The notes under the pieces: model-generated
Databases searched by the model: none
What the model was told of the DNA's origin: nothing
What the model saw: only the letters and a program-made list of their open reading frames with translations
Assembly: GCA_946482465.1 (NCBI GenBank)
Contig: CAMLRL010000002.1
Span: 1 to 64,000, forward strand
Reading direction: 5' to 3'
Source: an uncultured Lactobacillus sp.
GTDB taxonomy: Bacteria; Bacillota; Bacilli; Lactobacillales; Lactobacillaceae
DNA: 64,000 bases
Shown: positions 8,190 through 24,814 of the stretch, piece after piece
Position numbering within the stretch: the stretch's first letter is position 1
Layout of the letters: each line of letters opens with the position of its first letter
Translations under genes and position numbers: made by a program

Positions 8190-10175
8190 ATGAAAAAAAC
8201 TAGTATTTTCAAAAGTAAAACTTTGCTGAACTGCTCAGCATCTATCATACTCGGATTAATTGTTGCTAATCCAAAGTTAGTTAAAGCAGATAGTCTACCC
8301 ACTGATCAAGTGGCCACTTCTGGAACAGACACTAATCAAAGTGACCAGCTGGCTTCTTCAACCAATTCTAATACTAGCGAGGAAACCAGCCCCGTTGATA
8401 ATACAGAGGTACAAGCTGATTCAACTGAGTCTAATACTACACGCGCAACAGCTTCTGATAAAACTAATGCAATTACAGGTATCCTTGGCGGTCTTCAAGT
8501 TTCATACGATTTAGACACTGAAGAACTAAGCATTTTAGGTGGTACATATGATGGAGCGAATAGTAGAACACAACCATTAAGCACATGCAAACTTTATGCT
8601 GACGATGGACAAATTTATAATTCCCCAAAACCCAAAAAAATCAAGATAATAGGTAAAGTCTTTATTGCAGAAAATATGGATTACATGTTCAGTGGATTTA
8701 GTAATCTAACAGAAATTGAAGGCCTTGGTAATCTTGATACAGCAAATGTAACAGACATGTCCAAACTATTTTATAGTTGTTCCAGTTTAACTAAAGTTCG
8801 AGATCTTGGTGATCTTGATACAGCAAATGTAATAAACATGTGTGGACTGTTTTATGGCTGCTCCAGTTTAACTAGTGTTGAGGGCCTTATAAATCTGGAT
8901 ACATCAAATGTAGATGATATATCCGAAATGTTTTATGGTTGCCGTAGTTTAACTAATATTGACTTAGGTTCACCTATTAATTTTAAAACTCCAAAATTTA
9001 ATACTTCTAAGGTTTTAACTATGAGTAGCATGTTTGCGAAATGTGAGAACCTAATACAGGCGGACTTGTCGTGCTTCGACGTAACCCAAGTAGAAGACAT
9101 GTCCTGTATGTTTGAGGGTGCGCGGAGCCTAGTGGACCTGAATCTATCAAGTTTTAAAACTAACCACAAGATCTTCATGTCTTTCGAGCAAATGTTTGCG
9201 GAATGTAGTAGCTTAGTAGAGCTGGATTTGAGTGGCTTTACTACCCATAAATCAGCTGAAGTTTCTGAAATGTTTAAAAACTGCACAAGCTTAAGATCTC
9301 TGAATATTAAGAACCTTGACCTAGGTTGTCTCACTTTTGAGGAGATGCTGGAAGGTGTCACCAACTTAGATCTCATTGTTCTTGGACCCAGAACAGCTCT
9401 AGCTAGTATAGAAGAGTTAGCATGGGATCCTGAAGACCCTCATAGTTACATATATGGAACAGTCGGATTAAACACTCCTGGTATTTGGGTTAATGTAGGT
9501 AATGGTACAATTGACAATCCTGAAGCATCTACTCGATGGACTTCCTATGAACTTATGAAAAACCGTGCATGGTACGAAGAAGACGACATAGATGGGATAG
9601 ATGAATGGGATGACGATTGGAATAATGACTTGGGCGATGACTTGTTTAAAAATCCAGACTTAATCGCCGAAACATATGTCCGGATGGGACAGCCTGTAAC
9701 TATTAAGTATCAAGACGAAAGTGGCAATTCACTTAAAGCCAATGAAATTCACATTGGTCGTATTGGCACCAACTACTCTTTCTCAGCTGCTAAAATTTCT
9801 GGCTATGAGCTAAAAGCTAACTGTCTAGAAACCGTTACTGGACAGTATGATGCTAATAATGAACGAACAATAACGTTTGTCTATACTCCACTAAAAAGTC
9901 CTAACACTTCTGATGACTCTAACACTTCTGATAGCTCGAATGGCTCAACAGGTTCGATCCCAGATGTTCCGGAACTTGTGGGACCTGATAAGGGCAATTA
10001 CCAGCATCATAAGACTAATAGGATTGAACATGATATACCAAAAAGTAAGGCAGCTGACCCAGAACTACCAAAAACCGGAAAAAATAGTGTTTCGCAGCTT
10101 CTTACTACTGCTTTAGGTTTAATTAGTATCGCTAGTGCAAGCGCTCTGATTTGGGCTAAGCTGAAAAAAGACTAA
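8190..10175 (+). CDS. BspA-like LPXTG surface protein, copy 4
   Basis: This is a 661-residue surface protein with signal peptide (core SASIILGLIVANPKL, cleavage after VKA), a Ser/Thr-rich linker, a VSYDLDTEELSILGG block, about seven BspA-type repeats including three of a divergent form (GNLDTANVTDMSKLFYSC), and an Asp-rich loop (GIDEWDDDWNND) before the MucBP part. There is only one MucBP-like domain (VTIKYQDESGNSL). LPKTG lies about 36 residues from the end with tail WAKLKKD. The missing second MucBP domain distinguishes it from the others. SD AAAGGG precedes the ATG. A surface-adhesion role is inferred from the families. Confidence 0.88.
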   Translation: MKKTSIFKSKTLLNCSASIILGLIVANPKLVKADSLPTDQVATSGTDTNQSDQLASSTNSNTSEETSPVDNTEVQADSTESNTTRATASDKTNAITGILGGLQVSYDLDTEELSILGGTYDGANSRTQPLSTCKLYADDGQIYNSPKPKKIKIIGKVFIAENMDYMFSGFSNLTEIEGLGNLDTANVTDMSKLFYSCSSLTKVRDLGDLDTANVINMCGLFYGCSSLTSVEGLINLDTSNVDDISEMFYGCRSLTNIDLGSPINFKTPKFNTSKVLTMSSMFAKCENLIQADLSCFDVTQVEDMSCMFEGARSLVDLNLSSFKTNHKIFMSFEQMFAECSSLVELDLSGFTTHKSAEVSEMFKNCTSLRSLNIKNLDLGCLTFEEMLEGVTNLDLIVLGPRTALASIEELAWDPEDPHSYIYGTVGLNTPGIWVNVGNGTIDNPEASTRWTSYELMKNRAWYEEDDIDGIDEWDDDWNNDLGDDLFKNPDLIAETYVRMGQPVTIKYQDESGNSLKANEIHIGRIGTNYSFSAAKISGYELKANCLETVTGQYDANNERTITFVYTPLKSPNTSDDSNTSDSSNGSTGSIPDVPELVGPDKGNYQHHKTNRIEHDIPKSKAADPELPKTGKNSVSQLLTTALGLISIASASALIWAKLKKD

Positions 10176-10194
10176 CATATAACTAACAAATTTT

Positions 10195-10230
10195 AAAACC
10201 ACTTAGTGTTCTAAAACTAAGTGGTTTTAA
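10195..10230 (+). terminator. Terminator of surface-protein gene 4
   Basis: AAAACCACTTAGT (10195-10207) pairs with ACTAAGTGGTTTT (10216-10228). A degenerate version of the same hairpin follows copy 5. Confidence 0.8.
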
Positions 10231-10275
10231 CTTACATGAAAATATCTGAGTCACTTTAATATTTAATAAAAGTAA

Positions 10276-10315
10276 CAAAAATTGGACTTAACTCTTCACT
10301 TTTACTTGCGCTTAA
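10276..10315 (+). pseudogene. 5' remnant of a P1-peptidase gene
   Basis: Bases 10276-10314 match 13311-13349 (SD-proximal region and first codons of the P1-family peptidase) at 33 of 39 positions by eye. The start ATG has become ATT. It sits after copy 4 exactly where the intact gene sits after copy 5. It is a leftover from duplication of the segment 'surface gene + terminator + peptidase start'. The rest of the 712-base gap to 10887 is AT-rich, with no gene visible. Confidence 0.6.
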
Positions 10316-10789
10316 CAACACAATGTATAAACAAGATAATTTGTAAAAAATTAGACATTACTACGCTTATCCTCAGTGGCTAGAGAAATTTCACGACATT
10401 CTTTAAAAATCTCACTTTACAAATACTAATCGCAAGATAGCCAAGGAATAAATTATTCAGTAAAAAAGCTCTTTCTGCAGTCTAAACTAAATACAGTTAA
10501 ATAACTCTTGTGATCCTAGATTTGCAGTATGTACATTTAATAAAACATACGTGAATACCACAATCTCAGCAAAAATAAAAACATATATAATAACACATAT
10601 AATAGTAAATAAATAAGCAGTATTTTTAGTAACATATGTAACTTAAAGATTTACAAATTAGTATTTACATTTTGGTGTTATACTTTAACTGTATGCACAG
10701 CCTTTATTTTACAATAATTAAACACAGTATCCCTAATATATATGTCACATTTGATATTTTATTAATGAGCAATTAAAAATCATTTTTTG

Positions 10790-10887
10790 TGCAGAATAGA
10801 TTGTGTTTAGTTAATTGTTCACATAGTTGTTTAAACTGAGCGTACAAAAGTTATTGACAAATCAATAGCATAGGGAAAGGTATAATT
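10790..10887 (+). repeat. Leader block shared with surface-protein gene 4
   Basis: Second copy of the leader at 8098-8189. A small hairpin, TATTGA-CAAA-TCAATA, lies just before the SD GGGAAAGG and could affect translation. No clear -35/-10 pair was identified nearby. A conserved GTTATACTT-like -10 sits about 200 bases above both genes. Confidence 0.45.
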
Positions 10888-13185
10888 ATGAAAAAAACTA
10901 GTGATTTCAAAAGTAAAATTTTGCTGAGTAGTTCAGCATCCATTCTACTCGGAATAGTTCTCTCTAACACTCAGTTAGTTAAAGCAGATAATCTCTCTTC
11001 TGATCAAGTGTCTACTTCCAAAAAAGATACTGATCAAAATAACCAGTCCAATTCCTCTGAGGCTCCTGTTACAAACACAGTAAATCCTGATGAAGCTGAA
11101 GAAAGCAACTCAGTTAACACCACTGACTCGCCAAATGGTACCAATACTACACGTGCAGCGTCCACTCAATCTGATGTGATTACAGGTACGATGACAGGTA
11201 CTGATCTTCGGGTTTCATACGATTTAAACACTGATGAGCTAACTATTTTGGGTGGTACGTATCGTAAAAGCAGTAGAGGAGGGCTTTTTAACAGGTACTT
11301 ATACTCTACTGCTGACCGCAGAAATCATACCGAATTTCGAGATGCTGTAAAAATAAAGATAGTAGGCAAAGTCGATACTGATGGCGATCTTTCTAAGATG
11401 TTCGCTGAATTTTCGGAAGTAACGGAAATAGAGGGCCTTAATAATATCGACACATCAAATGTAACTAACATGTCTTTAATGTTTTCGGCGTGTATGGAAT
11501 TGACTAACCTCGATGTGAGTTCATGGAATACTTCTCAAGTTACAAATATGAACAATATGTTTGCTGAGTGTTATCAACTAACTGAAATTAAAGGTTTTAA
11601 TGATTTTGACACATCAAATGTAACTGACATGTCTGAGATGTTTGCTCTTTGTAGTGAACTGATTAGTCTCGACCTGAGTTCATGGAATACTTCTCAAGTT
11701 ACAAATATGTATGGAATGTTTGAAGGTTGCGGTGCTCTGACAAGCGTCAACCTTAGCGACTTAGATACTTCAAAAGTTACAAACATGGAGAGCATGTTTG
11801 AAGACTGCTACAGCCTGACTAGTTTAGACTTATCGAGCTTTGATACGCGAAAGGTTAAAAGTCTAGAGTCCATGTTCAGGGGCGCAACGAGTTTAGTTGA
11901 TGTGAACCTGTCAAGCTTTACTTTTGATATACCAGAAGATTATGTAAATATAGTTTCTATGGATAATATGTTCAGAGACTGTAGTAGCTTGGTTAACTTA
12001 GACTTAAGCAGCTTTAAAACTCATAGGTCAGTTGAAATTCCTGGTATGTTTAGAGGCTGCTCAAATTTAAAGTATCTGAATATTGAGAATTTTGACCTAG
12101 GATGCCTTCAGTTTGATGATAATGTGTTTGAAGGTGTTAATAACCTGGAAGTACTCGTTCTCGGTAAAAGAACGCCTCTAGCTAATGTAGACCAATTAGA
12201 CTACGATCCTGACTACCCAGAAAGTTACAAATATGGCACTGTAGGATTGAATGCTCCAGGTCTTTGGGCTAATGTTGGTACCGGTACAATTGATAATCCT
12301 GAAGCAACTACTCGATGGACTTCTTACGAGCTTATGAAAAACCGCGCTTGGTTTTACGAAGACATTGAAACTGGGCTTAATGGGCCCGACGACGAAGATG
12401 ATATAATCAATCCTGACTTAATTGCTGAGACCTATGTCCGGAAAGCGTGTCCTGTAACTATTCATTATCAGGACGAAAACGGCAACACGATTAAAAAAGA
12501 TGATGTTCATTTTGGTCGTATCGGTGAAAACTATTCCTTCTCCGCTGCCAAAATTTCTGACTATGAACTAAAAGCAGGTAGTCAGAGCACCTATACCGGA
12601 CAGTACGATGCTGTTAATGAACAGTCAATAACTTTTGTCTATTCAAAAATAGATAACTCTGACAGCTCTAATGGCTCGGACTCAACTGGTATAAAGCTTG
12701 ATGTTGACAATAAAATTGATATCGTTGTACATTATCAAGACGAGAACGGTAATACACTTGCAGCTGATGATATTTTAAGTGGCAGAATTGGTGATGGTTA
12801 TGTTTCTACCGCTAAGAAAATTAATGGCTATGAACTAAAATTTAGACCAAATAATGCCATTGGCTTTTTTGATAGAAATTCAAAGAGCATCATATATGTC
12901 TACAGTAAGATGAATGCTGATTCCCAGAAAGATGTTCCCGAAATTGCAACAAACGATAAGAGTAATCATCAACACCAAAAGACTAGACACCCTAAGATTA
13001 CGGAAACTAGTTATCATAAGGTCAATAAATTTGAAAATAATACGCCAAAAAGTAATGCGGCTACTGCACAGCAATTACCAAAAACTGGTAAAAGCAAGAT
13101 TGCACAGCTTCTTACAACTGCTTTAGGTTTAATTAGTGTCGCTAGTGCAAGCGCTCTGATTTGGACTAAACGAAAGAAAAGCTAA
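10888..13185 (+). CDS. BspA-like LPXTG surface protein, copy 5
   Basis: This is a 765-residue protein with signal peptide (SASILLGIVLSNTQL, cut after VKA), an Asn/Ser-rich linker, a VSYDLNTDELTILGG block, about eight BspA repeats (many as NLDVSSWNTSQVTNM), an acidic loop and two MucBP-like domains (VTIHYQDENGN near 525 and IVVHYQDENGN near 610). LPKTG is at about 730 with tail WTKRKKS. The N-terminal half and leader resemble copy 4, while the second MucBP domain resembles copies 1-3, so it looks mosaic. It is probably sortase-anchored with an adhesive role; the ligand is unknown. Confidence 0.9.
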   Translation: MKKTSDFKSKILLSSSASILLGIVLSNTQLVKADNLSSDQVSTSKKDTDQNNQSNSSEAPVTNTVNPDEAEESNSVNTTDSPNGTNTTRAASTQSDVITGTMTGTDLRVSYDLNTDELTILGGTYRKSSRGGLFNRYLYSTADRRNHTEFRDAVKIKIVGKVDTDGDLSKMFAEFSEVTEIEGLNNIDTSNVTNMSLMFSACMELTNLDVSSWNTSQVTNMNNMFAECYQLTEIKGFNDFDTSNVTDMSEMFALCSELISLDLSSWNTSQVTNMYGMFEGCGALTSVNLSDLDTSKVTNMESMFEDCYSLTSLDLSSFDTRKVKSLESMFRGATSLVDVNLSSFTFDIPEDYVNIVSMDNMFRDCSSLVNLDLSSFKTHRSVEIPGMFRGCSNLKYLNIENFDLGCLQFDDNVFEGVNNLEVLVLGKRTPLANVDQLDYDPDYPESYKYGTVGLNAPGLWANVGTGTIDNPEATTRWTSYELMKNRAWFYEDIETGLNGPDDEDDIINPDLIAETYVRKACPVTIHYQDENGNTIKKDDVHFGRIGENYSFSAAKISDYELKAGSQSTYTGQYDAVNEQSITFVYSKIDNSDSSNGSDSTGIKLDVDNKIDIVVHYQDENGNTLAADDILSGRIGDGYVSTAKKINGYELKFRPNNAIGFFDRNSKSIIYVYSKMNADSQKDVPEIATNDKSNHQHQKTRHPKITETSYHKVNKFENNTPKSNAATAQQLPKTGKSKIAQLLTTALGLISVASASALIWTKRKKS

Positions 13186-17645: not shown

Positions 17646-18458
17646 ATGAAAAAAGAAATTATTGCTCTAACCATTGCGGGAAACGATAGCGATGGTAGTG
17701 CAGGCATGACTGCCGATCTCCACTCGTTTTACGCACGTGGAGTATACGGAATGGGATTACTAACTGCAGCAGTTGCTGGAAACACTACTGGTATTTTTGC
17801 ACAAGAAGTTATGCCCATCCCATTTATCCAAAAGCAATTTGAAGTCTTAAATGACGACCTCAAAATTGACGCATTAAAGACTGGTATGCTGGCCAACAAA
17901 GAAGTTATTGGCTGTGTTGCCGAAAATTTGCGCAAATATGACATGGGTAAAATTGTTCTTGATCCCGTTATTATGACCAAACATGGTGATACCCTCTTAG
18001 ATGATGATGCTTATCAGGCCTTTTTAGACGACTTGATGCCACTGGCTGACATCATTACACCTAACTTTTATGAACAGAAAAAGTTAACTGGACTTGAATT
18101 AGCTACACCAGATGAAGTACGTCAAGGTGCTAAGAAACTGCAATCAATGGGTGCTAAAAATGTTTTAATGAAGGGCCGCCATGACGATACTAGCCAGTCT
18201 AAGGTAATTGACGTGTTACTAGCTGAAGATGGTAAGTTCTACGAATTCACCAAGCCTTTCATCAATACTGAAAGAATTAACGGCACAGGTGATACCTTAT
18301 CCGCCGTTATTGCCGCTGAATTGGCTAAAGGCAATTCTATTCTTGATAGCGTCAAGATTGCCAAGGAATTTACTTATGCAGCAATTGCTCATCCAATTGA
18401 AGTTGGCTCAAAATATGGTCCAATTAATCATTTCGCAGCGCAAGAAGATACGAAGTAA
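17646..18458 (+). CDS. PfkB-family pyridoxine/hydroxymethylpyrimidine-type kinase
   Basis: A 270-residue ribokinase-fold kinase of the PdxK/ThiD branch, which phosphorylates vitamin B6 vitamers or HMP(-P). Visible motifs: TIAGNDSDGSAGMTADL at the N-terminus, DALKTGML near residue 78, VLDPVIMTKHG near 105, and the anion-hole/catalytic NGTGDTLSA near 217. Sequence alone does not separate pyridoxal kinase from HMP kinase; no thiamine genes are nearby, which mildly favours vitamin B6 salvage. It lies 68 bases upstream of a GatD-like gene on the same strand. Confidence 0.82.
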   Translation: MKKEIIALTIAGNDSDGSAGMTADLHSFYARGVYGMGLLTAAVAGNTTGIFAQEVMPIPFIQKQFEVLNDDLKIDALKTGMLANKEVIGCVAENLRKYDMGKIVLDPVIMTKHGDTLLDDDAYQAFLDDLMPLADIITPNFYEQKKLTGLELATPDEVRQGAKKLQSMGAKNVLMKGRHDDTSQSKVIDVLLAEDGKFYEFTKPFINTERINGTGDTLSAVIAAELAKGNSILDSVKIAKEFTYAAIAHPIEVGSKYGPINHFAAQEDTK

Positions 18459-18526
18459 TTATCTTTTGCCCCTACTGCTCCTTTAAGATATACTTTAACG
18501 AGATAGTAATAGTTGGAGTGGTTTTT

Positions 18527-19195
18527 ATGGCAAACAAAACAATTAAAATTGCATATTTATACGAAGATTTGATGAATACTTACGGTGATTCCGGAGATGT
18601 CAAAATCATTCGCTACTTGTTAAAAAAGCAAGGCTATTCAACCCAAATTGATAACGTCTCTTTAGGTGATGAATTTAATGCCTTTGACTACGACTTCGTC
18701 TTTTTTGGCGGTGGTCAGGACTTTGAGCAAACTGTCATTGCTAAGGACTTGCCAAGACACAAGGAAACTTTAACTAAATACATCAATGACGGTAAGCCGA
18801 TGCTAGGAGTTTGTGGTGGCTATCAGCTTGTTGGCACTTATTACAAAACTAATTCCGGTGTCACAATTAAAGGCCTAGACATTCTACCGTTTCATACCGT
18901 TTTTAAAGCAGATAAGCGAATGATTGGCGATACCCGCTATATGAGTGAATGGGGCGAAGTTAGAGCCTTTGAAAACCACTCCGGTCAGACTTACTTTGAC
19001 GATTCAGATAAGTTGCATCCCCTGGGTGAAATGATTGAAGGTTACGGCAATAATCCCCAAGATCATGTTGAAGGGCTCCGCTACCGCAATTTTATCGGAA
19101 CATATTCACATGGTCCTCTCTTAAAAAATCTCAATGTTGCTAATGCCATTGTCAAAATGATTTTATCTTGGCACGATGAACGAGTTAGCGCATAA
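18527..19195 (+). CDS. GatD-like class-I glutamine amidotransferase
   Basis: A 222-residue CobB/CobQ-type glutaminase domain. The nucleophile is in PMLGVCGGYQLVG (Cys about residue 92) and the catalytic His in GTYSHGPLL. It resembles GatD, which with the Mur-ligase-like MurT amidates the lipid II stem glutamate. MurT is normally encoded next door, but the neighbour here is a PfkB kinase, so the partner must be elsewhere or the role differs. I chose the ATG at 18527, preceded by SD TTGGAG (18513-18518); the alternative GTG at 18518 overlaps that SD. Confidence 0.78.
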   Translation: MANKTIKIAYLYEDLMNTYGDSGDVKIIRYLLKKQGYSTQIDNVSLGDEFNAFDYDFVFFGGGQDFEQTVIAKDLPRHKETLTKYINDGKPMLGVCGGYQLVGTYYKTNSGVTIKGLDILPFHTVFKADKRMIGDTRYMSEWGEVRAFENHSGQTYFDDSDKLHPLGEMIEGYGNNPQDHVEGLRYRNFIGTYSHGPLLKNLNVANAIVKMILSWHDERVSA

Positions 19196-19256: not shown

Positions 19257-19308
19257 TTTTTTAATCAAAACAATAATTAGATTAATTTTTAGCAAAAAGG
19301 TGATAGTT

Positions 19309-20283
19309 GTGGCAACAGCACAAGACGTTGCAACACTTGCCGGTGTCTCTATCGGCTCTGTTTCAAATTACCTAAACGGTAAACAGCAAAGAAAAAGCAC
19401 AGCAGAAAAAATCAAAAAAGCAATGGAACAACTGGATTACCATCAAAATATTATTGCCAGTGGTTTAAAGAAAAACAAGACTATGTCAATTGGGATTGTA
19501 ATTAATCAACTAACTGACTTTTTTTCTATGTCCATCGTTTCAGCAATTGAAGCTTACGTTGAACAATTTGGCTACAGCATCATTGTTTGCGATTACCATG
19601 ATGATAAAAAACGTTTTGAACAAAAGTTGGACTTTTTATTGGATCACTCAGTTGATGCCATTATTGTCTTCCACCAAGATTTTGCTACCAAAATGCTGAA
19701 AAAAGTGGCTGCAGAACATATTCCAATTGTTGCAATCGATGCGCCAATCAGGGGCCTCAAATCAGATGTTGTTGTAGTTAATAACTATGAATCATCAAAA
19801 ATTGGTGTTAACTACCTAATTAATAAGGGTCATCACAAAATCGGCATCATCACCGGAACGGCTAAAAACTACATTTCGCGGGAAAGACAACGTGGCTATG
19901 AAGATGCTCTAAAGGAACATCAACTTCGAAACGATCAAACAACAATTTGGACCGGTGACTATTCCATTCAATCAGGTTGTGATGGTTTTAACGAACTAAT
20001 TACTAAAAATCCAGATCTCGATGCTCTGTTTATTATCAATTATTATATGTCTCTAGGGGCAATCAAAGCCTATCGTGAAAGTAACTTACACCCTAAAATT
20101 GAATTTCTTGTATACGATCACTTTTTTGTTAATGATCTCTTCTTCCCTGAAATAAGTTCAATTGAACAGCCTGTCGATCAAATAGGCACAACCGCAGGAA
20201 AACTATTAATTAATCGCCTATCCAAACCAAATAGCAGTGATTTTCAGACCGTTTACTGTAATAATATTCTTCGCTTAAAATAG
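19309..20283 (+). CDS. LacI-family transcriptional regulator of the PTS/fucosidase locus
   Basis: 324 residues. The N-terminal helix-turn-helix is typical (TAQDVATLAGVSIGSVSNYLNG), followed by a hinge and a periplasmic-binding-type effector domain (MSIGIVINQLTDFF; KIGIITGT). The start is probably GTG at 19309, with SD AAAAAGG 8 bases before it; the GTG at 19300 is part of that SD. The gene ends at the cre/promoter of the PTS operon downstream. A perfect LacI-type palindrome sits before the first PTS gene, so it most likely represses that operon; the inducer is probably a sugar or sugar phosphate. Confidence 0.88.
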   Translation: MATAQDVATLAGVSIGSVSNYLNGKQQRKSTAEKIKKAMEQLDYHQNIIASGLKKNKTMSIGIVINQLTDFFSMSIVSAIEAYVEQFGYSIIVCDYHDDKKRFEQKLDFLLDHSVDAIIVFHQDFATKMLKKVAAEHIPIVAIDAPIRGLKSDVVVVNNYESSKIGVNYLINKGHHKIGIITGTAKNYISRERQRGYEDALKEHQLRNDQTTIWTGDYSIQSGCDGFNELITKNPDLDALFIINYYMSLGAIKAYRESNLHPKIEFLVYDHFFVNDLFFPEISSIEQPVDQIGTTAGKLLINRLSKPNSSDFQTVYCNNILRLK

Positions 20284-20319
20284 AAAGCGCTTGCTTTTAC
20301 CCACTATTGAGCTTATAAT
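20282..20319 (+). promoter_or_regulatory. cre site overlapping the PTS operon promoter
   Basis: TTGCTT (20291-20296), exactly 17 bases, TATAAT (20314-20319). A cre-like AGAAAGCGCTTGCT (20282-20295; 11 of 14 consensus positions) overlaps the -35, which would let CcpA block RNA polymerase when better sugars are present. Confidence 0.75.
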
Positions 20320-20402
20320 TAACCTGTAATTTGAAATGATTCATTTTTAAAGTATCTGTATTATTTTAGAAATGATGAGATTTAAATTTTTTATTTTGTT
20401 AA

Positions 20403-20422
20403 AACTTGAATCGATTCAAGTT
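20403..20422 (+). promoter_or_regulatory. LacI-type operator palindrome
   Basis: AACTTGAATCGATTCAAGTT is a perfect 20-bp palindrome with the central CG typical of LacI-family operators. It is placed between the promoter and the SD of the IIB gene. A weaker look-alike, TTGAAATGATTCA, lies at 20331-20343, which could allow looping. Confidence 0.75.
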
Positions 20423-20434
20423 AAGGAGGAAAAA

Positions 20435-20743
20435 ATGAATATCTTATTAGCATGTGGCGGTGGCATGAGTTCATCAATTTTGGCAACAGCTTTAGCAAAA
20501 GAAGCTGCTGGCCATCAGCAAGACTGGAATGTCCACGAAACTAGTATTGACAAAGTTGAAGATGACTTGAATGAAAACGACTATCAAGTAATCTTATTGG
20601 CACCTCAAGTGTCTTTTAAAAAGAAAGATTTCGAAGAAGTAGCAGCAGAAAAGAATGCCAAATTCGTTTTGATTCCAATGACAATGTATACTCCCGCTAA
20701 AGTGGACAAATTGTATGAGTTAATCGTAAAGGAGACCGAATAA
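20435..20743 (+). CDS. PTS lactose/cellobiose-family IIB component
   Basis: 102 residues. Cys in LLACGGGMSSS (residue 7) is the phosphocysteine that passes phosphate to the incoming sugar. The ATG at 20435 is set by a strong SD (AAGGAGG, 20423-20429); a longer in-frame reading from 20372 would run through the operator and is rejected. The stop overlaps the IIC start by one base (TAATG), showing translational coupling. First gene of the operon IIB-IIC-MupG-like-IIA-fucosidase. Confidence 0.92.
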   Translation: MNILLACGGGMSSSILATALAKEAAGHQQDWNVHETSIDKVEDDLNENDYQVILLAPQVSFKKKDFEEVAAEKNAKFVLIPMTMYTPAKVDKLYELIVKETE

Positions 20744-22005
20744 TGAATTTCGATACGATTTCTGCAAAAATGGGACAAGTTGCTAACAATCGATACTTGA
20801 CTGCTATCAGAGACGGTATGTCAGTAATTATCCCTGTATCAATTATTGGCTCGTTTTTTACTATTTTATTGAACTTGCCAATTGATGCTTGGAAAAACTT
20901 TATTCAACCATATGCATCAATGCTATCAGTGCCAATGTACTATTCCATCAACTTGATGGCGATTTACTGTGTTTTTTCAATTACATCACATTTATCCAAG
21001 TACTATAAAATTGACCCAATCTCAACCAGTGTTTTGGCCGAAATGTCTTTCTTTATCCTAGCAATTAATCCAATTGTCCTTGATAAAGCCAAGGCAGGTA
21101 TTGCACCCGGAACTTACATGTCAATTGGTAATATGGGGGCTCAAGGGCTCTTTACTGCCATTCTTTGTGCAATCTTTTCGACTGAAGTTGTTCGACTTTT
21201 TACTCAACACAATTGGGTAATCAAAATGCCTGATGGTGTACCAGCTGCTGTTGGTAAATCATTCAGTGCCCTACTTCCTGGTATTTTAATTATTGTTGTT
21301 TCTTTTGTTTTGAAAGAAATTTTCAAACTTGATATTAATGCCATTTTAACCTGGGTATTCTCACCAATTGGCTACTTTGGCCGTGATAACTTCTTATCAG
21401 CAATCATTCCTGTGTTCTTAATCACTATCATCTGGTTGTTTGGCGTACACGGAATGGTTATTGCTACACCAATTCTTTACCCATACTGGTATGCTAACCT
21501 TAACGCCAACGTTGCTGCAGTTGCTCATGGTCAAGCTCCAGTTCACTTCATGACAGAGCAGTTTTTCCAATGGTTTGTTTGGATTGGTGGTGCTGGTGCT
21601 ACCCTTTCACTCGCAATCCTCCTAGCTTTTGCTGGAAAATCTAAGTTTAGTAAAACAATGGGTGCTGTAACTTTGGTACCAGCAATTTTCAACATTAACG
21701 AGCCTCTGATTTTCGGTATTCCAATCATTATGAACCCATACTTTGCTATTCCGTTTGTTTTAGCACCTACTGCAATGGCAGCTATGACTTATGTAGCAAT
21801 GAAATTACATCTTGTAGCTTATACAACCGCAGTTGCACCTTGGACTTTGCCCGGACCAATTGGCGCTTGGATGGCAACAGGATTTGATTGGCGCGCTATC
21901 GTTTTATGTATTGTTAACATTTTGATTTCTCTAGTTATTTACTACCCGTTCTTCAAGATGTTCGATAATAATCAACTGAAATTAGAGCAAGGAGCAAAAG
22001 AATAA
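20743..22005 (+). CDS. PTS lactose/cellobiose-family IIC permease
   Basis: 420-residue polytopic membrane protein forming the sugar channel of the PTS transporter. Many hydrophobic helices are visible, with the family-typical IIPVSIIGSFFTIL near residue 30, a central FGVHGMVIATPILYPYW, and a conserved INEPLIFGIPI near 305 that belongs to the substrate-binding region of EIIC(Lac/Cel) proteins. It has no fused IIA or IIB. Its stop overlaps the next start by one base. The sugar cannot be read from sequence; context suggests an amino-sugar or fucosylated glycan piece. Confidence 0.92.
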   Translation: MNFDTISAKMGQVANNRYLTAIRDGMSVIIPVSIIGSFFTILLNLPIDAWKNFIQPYASMLSVPMYYSINLMAIYCVFSITSHLSKYYKIDPISTSVLAEMSFFILAINPIVLDKAKAGIAPGTYMSIGNMGAQGLFTAILCAIFSTEVVRLFTQHNWVIKMPDGVPAAVGKSFSALLPGILIIVVSFVLKEIFKLDINAILTWVFSPIGYFGRDNFLSAIIPVFLITIIWLFGVHGMVIATPILYPYWYANLNANVAAVAHGQAPVHFMTEQFFQWFVWIGGAGATLSLAILLAFAGKSKFSKTMGAVTLVPAIFNINEPLIFGIPIIMNPYFAIPFVLAPTAMAAMTYVAMKLHLVAYTTAVAPWTLPGPIGAWMATGFDWRAIVLCIVNILISLVIYYPFFKMFDNNQLKLEQGAKE

Positions 22006-23099
22006 TGTACGGAATTTCGGTTTATCCAAATAAAAGTAGCGTGAACGAATGTATCAACTATATTGATCGTGCTGCGGAACTAGGATATAGTCGACTTTTC
22101 ACCAGTTTACTAGAGCTTAATGACGATCAAGAAGCTATTCTAAACAAGTTTAAAGAAGTCCTGCTTCATGCTCACGAGAAAGGCATGTGGATTAGCTTAG
22201 ACGTTAATCCAGGCTTATTTGACAGCTTAAATGTTGGTTACAACGACTTATCCTTTTTTAAAGAGCTTGGAGCCGATATTGTACGTCTAGATTCAAATTT
22301 TGATGGTATGCCTGAGTCAATCATGACTTATAACCCTGAAGATTTATCAATTGAAGTTAACATTAGTAATGACACAGGAAATTTGGCTAATATCTTTAGC
22401 TATAGTCCAAACAAAGAAAAAATTATCGGCTGCCACAATTTTTATCCCCAACGTTATACTGGTTTAGACACTATCTACTTTTTGGAAACCACTCGCAAAT
22501 ACCATGATATGGGTATAAGAACTGCTGCCTTTGTGTCTTCTAACGCTGGAAAAATCGGACCACATCCATATAATGCAGGTTTGCCTACGCTAGAAATTCA
22601 CCGCAATTTACCTATTGAAAAGCAAGCACAGTACTTAATCAACACACAGCTAATTGATGATGTGATTATTGGTAACGCCTTCGCTAGTGATGATGAACTA
22701 GCAAAAATTGCTAAACTTGATTCACAAGTTCCACAATTTTTCGTCGAATTTACTCCAACTGCAACTGCTCTTGAAAAAGAAATTGTTTTAGAAAACTTAC
22801 ACTTTAACCGTGGAGATATTAACAGCTATGCCGTTCGTTCTACATTTGTAAAACTTAAATATAATAAGCAGGATTTACCTGTTAATAATCCAGTAGATCA
22901 GTTAAAGCCCGGAATGATCACAATTGGTAACAATGATTTCGATCAGTATAAAGGCGAACTAAATATCGTTAAGCAAGAAATGGATAACAGCGACCATCTA
23001 AAAAACGTTGTTGCACAAATTGTTCCTAGCGATTTGCAATTCATTGATTTTATTAAACCATGGGATAAATTTAAATTTATTGATCTCAGCAATTACTAA
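22005..23099 (+). CDS. MupG/DUF871-family TIM-barrel phosphoglycosidase-like protein
   Basis: 364 residues of the DUF871 family, whose characterised member MupG is a cytoplasmic 6-phospho-N-acetylmuramidase that splits MurNAc-6P-GlcNAc. Visible features: MYGISVYPNKSS start, LGYSRLFTSLLE, MWISLDVNPG, LGADIVRLDSNFDG, a central GCHNFYPQRYTGLD, a TAAFVSSNAG strand, and a C-terminal beta domain (VDQLKPGMITIGN). It is translationally coupled to IIC. I infer it cleaves the phosphorylated disaccharide that the PTS delivers; the substrate may differ from that of MupG because a fucosidase, and not murQ, is in the operon. Confidence 0.82.
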   Translation: MYGISVYPNKSSVNECINYIDRAAELGYSRLFTSLLELNDDQEAILNKFKEVLLHAHEKGMWISLDVNPGLFDSLNVGYNDLSFFKELGADIVRLDSNFDGMPESIMTYNPEDLSIEVNISNDTGNLANIFSYSPNKEKIIGCHNFYPQRYTGLDTIYFLETTRKYHDMGIRTAAFVSSNAGKIGPHPYNAGLPTLEIHRNLPIEKQAQYLINTQLIDDVIIGNAFASDDELAKIAKLDSQVPQFFVEFTPTATALEKEIVLENLHFNRGDINSYAVRSTFVKLKYNKQDLPVNNPVDQLKPGMITIGNNDFDQYKGELNIVKQEMDNSDHLKNVVAQIVPSDLQFIDFIKPWDKFKFIDLSNY

Positions 23100-23109
23100 A
23101 GGAGTAACT

Positions 23110-23448
23110 ATGGAAGGTTTAGAAGAAATTAGTTTTGAAATTATCAGTCATTCTGGTCAAGCAAAAGCTGAAATTATGGAAGCAGTGTCGCGCTCTCGCT
23201 CAGGTAATGAAGACCCACAACCATTACTTGATTCAGCAAAAGAAGAGCTTAAGCAGGCTCAAAACAGCCACTTAAAAGCACTATCAGATTTTGCCAAAAC
23301 AGGTGATAGCAAAATTGATCCCCTGTATATGCATGCTGAGGATCAGATGATTACCGCTGAAAGTTTTTTAGACTTTGCAACAGAATTGATCAAAACTAAC
23401 TTAGAATTAGCAAAGTTAAAGCAAGAACTACAGAATCAGAGCAACTAA
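23110..23448 (+). CDS. PTS lactose/cellobiose-family IIA component
   Basis: 112-residue all-helical IIA(Lac) protein. N-terminal EISFEIISHSGQAKAEIMEA is typical, and MHAEDQ (His about residue 77) is the phosphohistidine motif. The ATG at 23110 follows SD AAAGGAG; a longer reading from inside the upstream gene is rejected. It completes the PTS with the IIB and IIC above. Interruption of IIC-IIA by the MupG-like gene is a useful signature of this locus type. Confidence 0.9.
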   Translation: MEGLEEISFEIISHSGQAKAEIMEAVSRSRSGNEDPQPLLDSAKEELKQAQNSHLKALSDFAKTGDSKIDPLYMHAEDQMITAESFLDFATELIKTNLELAKLKQELQNQSN

Positions 23449-23510
23449 TATTTTATCCCACAAAACTATTAGTTGATTCAACAATTCACAAATAGTTGAA
23501 AGTAGAAATA

Positions 23511-24740
23511 ATGAAAATAGAAAATAAAATCGCAAACTTTGAAAAAATGGGTATTGGCTTATTTGTTCATTGGGGACTTTATTCCAAGTTCTCTAAGGGT
23601 GAATGGTCACAAAACATTTTAAATATCCCAGAATATCAAGCAGCATTTAATGAATTTAATCCTGCAGAAGAAAATATTCGTAATTTAGTTAGACTAGCAA
23701 AAAAGAGTGGCTTTAAGTACATTGTCCTAACAGCTAAACATCATGATGGCTTTTATCTCTTTGATACTAAAGGAATCAACTCTTTTGATAGCATTCATAC
23801 TCCCTTTAGTAAAGATGTAATTAAAATCTTTACTGATGAATGTCATCGACAAAACATTTCTCCTTTTATTTATTACGCTACCTATGACTGGAATAACGAT
23901 AAATATAATAATGATTTTACTGGTTATTTATCAGAGCTACGCGAGTTAATTAAACTTTTATGTACCAACTATGGTGAAATTGGTGGTTTTTGGTTTGACG
24001 GAAATTGGGACAAACCCAATGCTGATTGGCAAGAACAGCAACTTTATGATAAAATAAGGCAACTACAGCCTAATGCAATAATTACTAACAATACGGGCTT
24101 AGAGAAGCAAGGAACAAGTGAAGGAAGAGATGTTGATGTTTTAACCTTTGAACGTGGTGATCCTAAGTCCATTACACATATTCAAAACGACCGCTATTTA
24201 GCCGCTGAAACATCGCTAACTCTCAACAAACACTGGGGTAACGCTCAAAACGACCTTAACTACCTTTCCGCTCACGATTTAATCGAACAAATTTGCCGTA
24301 CTAGAAAAGTTGGGGCAAATTTATTGATTAATGTTGGACCTGAATTCGATGGCTCTCTGAACATTCACTGTCAGTCAATGATTGAAATAGTCGGAGCCTG
24401 GATGTCCGTCAACCACGAAGCAATCTATCATACCAATAATTTTGAACATCCAACCTATAAAACATGTTCAAATGATTATGACTTTATCAAAGGTGATTAC
24501 TTGTTTGTTGATAATTTAGGCAATATCGGTAACAGTAATGTTGTACTTGGCGGTGAGGAAAATCGCCAACTTATTTTTAATGATTACCCTTCGCGCCCAA
24601 TAACCCGTATAAGTTGGCTCGATAACCAGCAAGAAGTCCAATTTAAGCAAAATTCTAAAACTAACACATTAGAAATTGAAGCAAATGGATTTGAGTACGG
24701 AACCAACTTGGTTGAGCGTGTAGCTAAAATTTATTATTGA
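23511..24740 (+). CDS. GH29 alpha-L-fucosidase, intracellular
   Basis: 409 residues, GH29 fold: GIGLFVHWGLYSKFSKGEW near the N-terminus, TAKHHDGFYLFDTK, and GGFWFDGNW holding the expected Asp nucleophile (about residue 160). There is no signal peptide, so it acts in the cytoplasm, on sugars imported by the adjacent PTS. The start is ambiguous: ATG 23511 is preferred over TTG 23496; the SD is weak. It lies 62 bases after IIA without a terminator, so it is probably last in the operon. It would release fucose before or after the MupG-like cut. No fucose catabolic genes are seen nearby. Confidence 0.88.
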   Translation: MKIENKIANFEKMGIGLFVHWGLYSKFSKGEWSQNILNIPEYQAAFNEFNPAEENIRNLVRLAKKSGFKYIVLTAKHHDGFYLFDTKGINSFDSIHTPFSKDVIKIFTDECHRQNISPFIYYATYDWNNDKYNNDFTGYLSELRELIKLLCTNYGEIGGFWFDGNWDKPNADWQEQQLYDKIRQLQPNAIITNNTGLEKQGTSEGRDVDVLTFERGDPKSITHIQNDRYLAAETSLTLNKHWGNAQNDLNYLSAHDLIEQICRTRKVGANLLINVGPEFDGSLNIHCQSMIEIVGAWMSVNHEAIYHTNNFEHPTYKTCSNDYDFIKGDYLFVDNLGNIGNSNVVLGGEENRQLIFNDYPSRPITRISWLDNQQEVQFKQNSKTNTLEIEANGFEYGTNLVERVAKIYY

Positions 24741-24775: not shown

Positions 24776-24814
24776 AACAAATAGCTCCGAAAATAATTCG
24801 GAGCTATTTTTGCT
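24776..24814 (+). terminator. Terminator of the PTS/fucosidase operon
   Basis: AAATAGCTCCGAA (24778-24790) pairs with TTCGGAGCTATTT, then TTTTG. Confidence 0.85.

Follow-up and report, generated by a model that had tools for sequence, protein, structure and literature searches.

Which sugar would call for a lactose-class phosphotransferase system (PTS), a MupG-like glycoside hydrolase of family GH170 and an intracellular GH29 fucosidase within a single operon? The question is raised by a 64,000-nucleotide stretch of an uncultured Lactobacillus sp. (assembly GCA_946482465.1, contig CAMLRL010000002.1, positions 1 to 64,000), here called the window, in which six genes on the + strand at 19300-24740 encode a LacI-family regulator, IIB, IIC, GH170, IIA and GH29, with the content, order and coordinates first described in an earlier sequence-only reading. 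Our tentative answer, with a probability of roughly 0.48, is that the operon feeds the cell on GlcNAc-beta1,4-(Fuc-alpha1,3)GlcNAc (GlcNAc, N-acetylglucosamine; Fuc, fucose), taken up by the Lac-class PTS and then cut by GH170 and GH29. The general scheme of a fucosylated amino sugar entering through the PTS and being processed by two glycosidases appears well supported and was also the proposal of the sequence-only reading; for the exact sugar the odds are about even. No description of such a GH170-GH29-PTS food route was found in the open-access literature searched.

The host is, judging from its sequence, Lactobacillus apis or a near relative, and the window GH29 shares 99% identity with its counterpart in L. 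apis LMG 26964. The genome containing the window (G000) is a 907 kb assembly, 54% complete. The genes of the operon are as follows.

19300..20283 (GTG start at 19300 or 19309), + strand: LacI-family regulator, likely a local repressor (Pfam LacI 42 bits, Peripla_BP_1/3/4)
20435..20743, + strand: PTS enzyme IIB, lactose/cellobiose class, with Cys7 in MNILLACGGGMS (Pfam PTS_IIB 48 bits; PDB 2l2q, a cellobiose IIB)
20743..22005, + strand: PTS enzyme IIC, lactose/cellobiose class (PTS_EIIC 180 bits; TIGR00410 356 bits, above cut-off)
22005..23099, + strand: GH170 (MupG/DUF871), putative 6-phospho-glycosidase (Pfam MupG_N 290 bits, MupG_C 119 bits)
23110..23448, + strand: PTS enzyme IIA, lactose/cellobiose class, with the phospho-His in YMHAEDQ (PTS_IIA 72 bits; PDB 3l8r)
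23511..24740 (alternative TTG start at 23496), + strand: GH29 alpha-L-fucosidase, AlfB-type, predicted intracellular (Alpha_L_fucos PF01120 192 bits)

Operon proteins and described relatives

Alignments with 3l8r, 2l2q and 3qnq showed that the Lac/cellobiose-class residues are all present in the PTS proteins, namely the IIA His, the IIB Cys, and the His of GxHG and Glu of FNINE in IIC. For IIC, 3qnq was the sole solved match; IIA also weakly matched the chitobiose IIA 1wcr (E 1e-4). We take these residues to serve their customary roles in the PTS, with the IIC His and Glu presumably contacting the sugar. GH170 aligned with PDB 1x7f over residues 2-359 (360 bits, 49% identity) and carries the consensus residue in 35/35 columns showing no variation, or one exception at most, across 55 aligned members. 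GH29 aligned with PDB 8ozu over residues 6-409 (377 bits, about 45% identity) and retains the likely nucleophile Asp163 and acid/base Glu214; chain 8ozt has Gln at the position of Glu214, as would be expected of a catalytic mutant. The protein starts MKIENKIANFEKMGIG, and its N-terminus, judged by eye, does not resemble a signal peptide, in agreement with the sequence-only reading. GH29, GH170 and IIC all look active, and the description of the locus as an uptake and cleavage module is borne out by a PTS and two glycosidases that are conserved together across species.

Several described systems share parts of this operon. In Lacticaseibacillus paracasei BL23, the chb genes (PTS ChbABC and the GH170 ChbE; PMC12791066) likewise combine cellobiose-class IIA, IIB and IIC with GH170, for a predicted cleavage of the phospho-disaccharide to GlcNAc-6P and GlcNAc; the window operon differs in having no DUF3284 gene (ChbD), in adding an AlfB-type GH29 and in its uniform gene direction, chbRCDE and chbBA being divergent. 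The L. casei alf genes (alfB-alfR with divergent alfEFG; PMC6109692) also pair an intracellular AlfB-type GH29 with a PTS, but as described there this PTS is mannose-class, the sugar is not phosphorylated, the regulator AlfR is GntR-type and there is no GH170, whereas the window operon has a Lac/cellobiose-class PTS and LacI. The mupG-murQ-murP-murR genes of Staphylococcus aureus (PMC6262408) place a GH170/DUF871 enzyme on a PTS-phosphorylated amino-sugar disaccharide, with a murQ and a Glc-family murP that the window operon does not have. Finally, L. casei alf-2 (PMC6960285), which acts on Fuc-alpha1,6-GlcNAc-Asn, resembles the window operon in scavenging core-fucosylated N-glycan fragments with an intracellular GH29, but uses a major facilitator superfamily permease, the alpha1,6-specific AlfC and a glycosylasparaginase, and its abstract names no PTS or GH170.

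Genomes of L. apis hold separate loci of two of these kinds. In G447, there are three GH170 genes, of which one belongs to the operon and the other two adjoin MurQ and a Glc-family MurP-like PTS (C56); in this murQ locus (L134:7596-14806), which also holds an isochorismatase-family gene, the tandem GH170 paralogues are 27% and 42% identical to the window GH170. In G400, a separate alf-type operon (L129) contains GH29, mannose-class EII genes and an AlfR-like GntR regulator, the families being tested on the corresponding genes of L065. Because L. apis has both of these loci in addition, the window operon is neither the alf operon nor the murQ locus, and L. apis keeps all three. The supposition that the operon is distinct from the L. 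casei fucosyl-GlcNAc system is therefore upheld.

A candidate route for core-fucosylated chitobiose

The substrate proposed here is drawn from the properties of the enzymes and of the host. S. aureus MupG, which cuts MurNAc-6P-GlcNAc (MurNAc, N-acetylmuramic acid; PMC6262408), is named in PMC12791066 as the only biochemically characterised GH170. In L. paracasei, ChbE and a cellobiose-class PTS are both required for growth on diacetylchitobiose, the activity of ChbE on the phospho-disaccharide being that source's own inference too (PMC12791066). The sequence-only reading had taken MupG to be a muramidase that works with murQ; this holds for the S. aureus enzyme but not for GH170 as a family, and because ChbE is needed for diacetylchitobiose growth, chitobiose would be a better core than MurNAc. 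AlfB prefers Fuc-alpha1,3-GlcNAc and accepts disaccharides, and Gal (galactose) in Lewis X abolishes its activity (PMC6109692; PMC11189522). The trisaccharide GlcNAc-beta1,4-(Fuc-alpha1,3)GlcNAc accumulates in Arabidopsis without the fucosidase AtFUC1 (PMC9522356; AtFUC1 also PMC7933510), core fucose being alpha1,3-linked in plants and alpha1,3- and alpha1,6-linked in insects (PMC9522356). L. apis was described as a species from the honeybee stomach (cited in PMC9143654), and a pollen-eating bee would be a fitting host for this substrate.

In the proposed route, other gut enzymes outside the cell or plant vacuolar degradation would free the trisaccharide from pollen or insect glycoproteins. 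IIA, IIB and IIC would import it and, as expected from the PTS class, phosphorylate the outer GlcNAc at O6; the phosphate is placed on GlcNAc rather than on fucose because L-fucose has no hydroxyl at O6. GH170, by analogy with ChbE and MupG, would hydrolyse the beta1,4 bond to give GlcNAc-6P and Fuc-alpha1,3-GlcNAc, and the AlfB-type GH29 would then split the latter. GH29 is placed second because AlfB loses its activity when a non-terminal Gal is present, as in Lewis X, an effect that we extend by inference to GlcNAc in the same position. GlcNAc-6P would enter glycolysis through NagA, which was above cut-off in 11/11 genomes searched. Excretion would be the main fate of fucose, since an L-fucose isomerase was found in only 1/11 genomes searched (the 54% complete G000 among them); work on L. 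casei reports fucose excretion, according to its title (cited in PMC12791066).

The same genes could serve other sugars. The mucin or milk sugars named in the sequence-only reading (fucosyllactose, Lewis X) would be compatible with a Lac-class PTS joined to a fucosidase, and AlfB-type enzymes are known in gut lactobacilli (PMC6109692). Such substrates fit poorly with the bee host, the operon contains no phospho-beta-galactosidase or tagatose-6P genes, and AlfB activity is lost with the Gal of Lewis X (PMC11189522). Fucosyllactose and Lewis X were rejected on the last two grounds, and we consider a milk- or mucin-type substrate highly improbable. We also know of no GH170 that acts on Gal-6P.

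Fucosylated LacdiNAc, GalNAc-beta1,4-(Fuc-alpha1,3)GlcNAc (GalNAc, N-acetylgalactosamine), would present identical geometry to both enzymes, with GH170 acting on GalNAc-6P, and is an antenna of bee (venom) glycoproteins. This substrate seems improbable, as the operon has no GalNAc-6P genes, no GH170 for GalNAc-6P is known to us, and Pediococcus acidilactici, which has the operon too, is not known as a bee specialist.

It is also conceivable that one PTS serves two unlinked sugars, importing a beta1,4-linked amino-sugar disaccharide on which GH170 acts and, without phosphorylating it, the Fuc-alpha1,3-GlcNAc that GH29 would split. The two enzymes could act independently, and the mannose-class alf PTS moves Fuc-alpha1,3-GlcNAc without phosphorylating it (PMC6109692), but L. 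apis already owns an alf-type PTS (L129), and the recurrent pairing of GH170 with GH29 described below suggests a single substrate that requires both. We regard this division of labour as unlikely.

Gene neighbourhoods in other genomes and MurNAc as a possible alternative

The sequence-only reading had suggested a search of genomes for GH170 next to GH29 and a Lac-type PTS, and this search was fruitful. The order LacI-IIB-IIC-GH170-IIA-GH29 was also found in L. apis L002, in L124, L125 and L126, in P. acidilactici L004 and in the Lactobacillus metagenome-assembled genome L007; L003 has the same order from IIB, where its contig begins, and is one of the five Lactobacillus genomes, apart from L007 and the window's own, that share it. 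The operon coordinates in G447 (source of L002) and G400 (its copy in the genus sample) are identical, so that the two were treated as one genome, and G400 and the window genome are one species or nearly so. Because the order recurs across other species, the arrangement appears not to be due to chance.

In the genus sample, 12/75 genomes hold 14 AlfB-type GH29 loci, ten adjoining GH170/Lac-PTS genes and four a mannose-class PTS; AlfB-type loci are largely orthologues, so these counts are not independent events. The family sample gave matches in 18/397 genomes, with 16 full AlfB-type loci, of which four adjoin GH170 (G000, G129, G069, G098) and 12 a mannose-class PTS; the remaining two matches were a fragment (G062) and a distant GH29 (G326). 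GH170 itself is widespread in this sample (175/397 genomes). At the level of the order, a search at E 1e-60 matched 4/395 genomes, all Lactobacillaceae.

Five gene orders join GH29 to GH170 and a Lac-PTS in total: GH29 last, as in the window; GH29 first, with a 22 bp overlap with IIB (L132); GH29 first with a kinase and MurQ last (L067, in G069); IIB-IIC-IIA-GH29-GH170 (L127, in G405); and GH29 converging on a GH170-IIB-IIC-IIA operon (L006, L075). The PTS-GH29-GH170 genes of L127 are preceded, at a distance of about 900 bp, by genes for a DgaE-family ammonia lyase, an amidohydrolase and an aldolase of the KDPG type (L127:532-4990), which may point to an amino-sugar acid in the G405 species.

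Phylogenetic analysis did not gather the paired genes into a single clade. In the GH29 tree (36 rows, after removal of the four distant GH29 L009_6175, L078_6448, L079_4010 and L190_12334), the 13 GH170-linked rows do not form one clade, and a single such clade was rejected (approximately unbiased (AU) test, p 1.4e-5). An earlier tree that included the four distant rows, two of them then scored as GH170-linked, gave AU p 3.8e-5; both trees exclude fragments of <=330 amino acids, such as G062/L077. For the GH170 tree, 4 label changes are required to account for the 11 rows that have GH29 but not MurQ nearby, and well-supported branches force at least 3 of these changes; such counts cannot separate gain from loss. 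This tree has 54 rows, without the duplicates L001, L062, L064, L128 and L185 and fragments of <=300 amino acids (in L127, L184, L191, L192); L067, the sole row with both GH29 and MurQ, was scored as its own group, and distant GH29 below 300 bits (e.g. in L079 and L190) were not scored as neighbours. Both trees would fit repeated pairing, partner exchange or repeated loss.

The distant GH29 form a second class, found beside a PTS IIC-like gene at L190:10862-14632 (G415) and L079:2660-5290 (G330), with Alpha_L_fucos scores of 273 and 287 bits, respectively. The L190 locus also has a LacI gene; close to the L079 gene are a GH1 gene and a GH170 that is 66% identical to the window GH170. In L087 and L088, IIB-IIC-GH170-IIA is accompanied by a BadF-type kinase and an esterase, with MurQ and GH29 absent within the stretch; this appears to be a further GH170 PTS module.

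Related loci with MurQ bring a muramyl sugar into consideration. In G069, the operon reads GH29-IIB-IIC-GH170-IIA-kinase-MurQ with gaps of <=23 bp; MurQ is above cut-off, and the kinase is BadF-family (NagK match 85 bits, below the cut-off of 370). Downstream lie an esterase and a class II aldolase, both on the other strand and the latter not clearly FucA, with a MurR/RpiR-type regulator between them; a DeoR regulator, FucI (above cut-off), an FGGY kinase whose best NCBIfam match, to rhamnulokinase, is below cut-off, a sugar porter and an RbsD/FucU-family gene follow. With FucI and its neighbours downstream of the GH29 operon, fucose is very likely a product in this genome.

One alternative would thus be that the PTS carries MurNAc-GlcNAc, with GH170 as a 6-phospho-muramidase and GH29 reserved for a rare fucosylated form or a second substrate. 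It draws on MurQ inside the G069 operon, on the MurQ-linked GH170/IIC clade nearest to the window's, and on MurQ being above cut-off in 10/12 genomes searched (it was not found in the 54% complete G000). The window operon, on the other side, has no murQ etherase; a second MurNAc system would be redundant in L. apis LMG 26964, with its locus of MurQ, a Glc-family PTS and two GH170; the fucosidase would be idle on plain MurNAc-GlcNAc; and no fucosylated MurNAc is known to us. We consider this alternative rather unlikely. Plain MurNAc recycling as the sole role was rejected, as L. apis has a separate locus for it. The peptidoglycan-related sugar suggested by the sequence-only reading accordingly keeps some backing from MurQ beside related GH170 elsewhere, but chitobiose remains the better core. 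A bolder variant is that these operons reveal a so far undescribed fucosylated muramyl (peptidoglycan-type) disaccharide yielding fucose, GlcNAc and MurNAc-6P. It is prompted by G069, which unites GH29, GH170, a GlcNAc-type kinase and MurQ with FucI just downstream, and it seems quite improbable.

Several observations nevertheless count against fucosylated chitobiose as the substrate. The foremost is that seven loci (L080-L086) of the GH170 clade nearest to the window's, which lack GH29, have MurQ alongside together with a BadF-family kinase, and that no further MurQ or GH170 was found in the 91% complete G069; MurQ in these loci speaks for MurNAc as the phosphorylated sugar there, and GlcNAc and MurNAc may both be accepted at the phosphorylated position by the PTS and GH170 of this clade. 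Twenty columns part seven window-type GH170 rows from eight MurQ-operon rows, and no MurNAc-versus-GlcNAc signature could be read from them without a ligand structure. Among the six operon proteins there is no GlcNAc kinase and no ChbD (DUF3284). The label AlfB-type was assigned through alf synteny, and the window GH170 may or may not lie close to ChbE: a DUF3284 search of 36 genomes of the genus of G333, which has alf-type loci, gave matches in six (five above cut-off), and of four neighbourhoods inspected none had the published chb order, although L179 and L180 have GH170 and MurQ 5' of an IIC-DUF3284 pair, so that ChbE is not in the GH170 tree. In the GH29 tree, which does not contain AlfB, the window type joins alf-type (alfEFG-like) rows against six Paenibacillus-type or other rows (support 100/99), and the window GH29 is 44-46% identical to those of alf-type loci. 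The branch of the window-type clade is long, at 1.2 changes per site, and AlfB specificity may for this reason not carry over to it. Among the gene orders, L132 has a mannose-class PTS nearby too, the L127 GH170 is truncated by the contig end, and GH29 and GH170 of L006 and L075 lie on opposite strands, near each other but not co-transcribed. Lastly, GH29 might have its own promoter, as a promoter-like match (23485-23512, 10/12) falls in the gap behind IIA.

Regulation of the operon and biological meaning

The elements flanking the structural genes are as follows.

20284..20294, + strand: cre-like site (catabolite-responsive element) AAAGCGCTTGC, read from the sequence, overlapping the -35 region
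20291..20319, + strand: putative promoter TTGCTT-17-TATAAT, 5' of IIB, read by eye
20332..20346, + strand: putative LacI operator 1, palindrome TTGAAATGATTCATT
20403..20422, + strand: putative LacI operator 2, perfect palindrome AACTTGAATCGATTCAAGTT, directly 5' of the IIB ribosome-binding site
24779-24809, + strand: intrinsic terminator and likely operon end, a 13-pair stem then a T run, 3' of GH29

From IIB to IIA, neighbouring genes overlap by one base or sit within 10 bp, and 62 bp separate IIA from GH29. Terminator-like calls on the + strand in 20435-24740 fall inside GH170 and GH29, with none between genes. A single promoter, as the sequence-only reading proposed, is likely but no more, because a consensus promoter scan of the window did not call the eye-read IIB promoter and its 19 calls, which include the match in the IIA-GH29 gap, were not above chance (shuffles: mean 21.8, standard deviation 5.1). 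The TATAAT is kept at the same distance in L124, L125 and L126.

The LacI gene and the cre of that reading were both recovered. A similar LacI gene lies immediately 5' in L002, L124, L125, L126, L004, L007 and L132. The cre-like label follows the usual cre consensus; counterparts are AAAGCGCTTGC in L124 and L132, GAAGCGCTTGC in L125 and L126 and TGAAAGCGCTTGC in L004, with none within the 93 bp read from L007. Operator 1 is identical in L124, TTGAAATGTTTCATT in L125 and L126 and TGAAACGATTCA in L004. Operator 2 differs by one base in L124 and is looser in L125, L126 and L004; it occurs once in the window at <=3 mismatches, with one exact copy each in G000 and G447. Sites elsewhere with 2 mismatches (one in G447, none in G000, three in G417) were near the level of a reversed-pattern control, and no second convincing site was found in these three genomes. 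LacI looks like a local regulator because the exact operator is single in the window, G000 and G447; it would repress by binding to both palindromes, and CcpA would act on the operon through the cre-like site.

The operon is preceded by a thiD-type kinase and a GatD-like amidotransferase (17646-19195), the latter with 226 bits to NCBIfam GatD against a cut-off of 400. Genes of similar size lie 5' of the operon in G407 (L126) and G417 (L124:1852-3583, 10063-12443), the latter with thiM and thiE on the 3' side, unlike L. apis L002.

If the proposed substrate is correct, the operon would allow uptake through a PTS of core alpha1,3-fucosylated chitobiose, a structure typical of the N-glycans of plants and insects. 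These N-glycans are linked to venom allergy. They are also known pollen and food allergens (PMC9522356). The route would add a further physiological substrate for GH170 and would account for the pairing of AlfB-type fucosidases with GH170 in several gene arrangements. It would also show how glycoproteins of pollen or of the host may sustain lactobacilli in bees.

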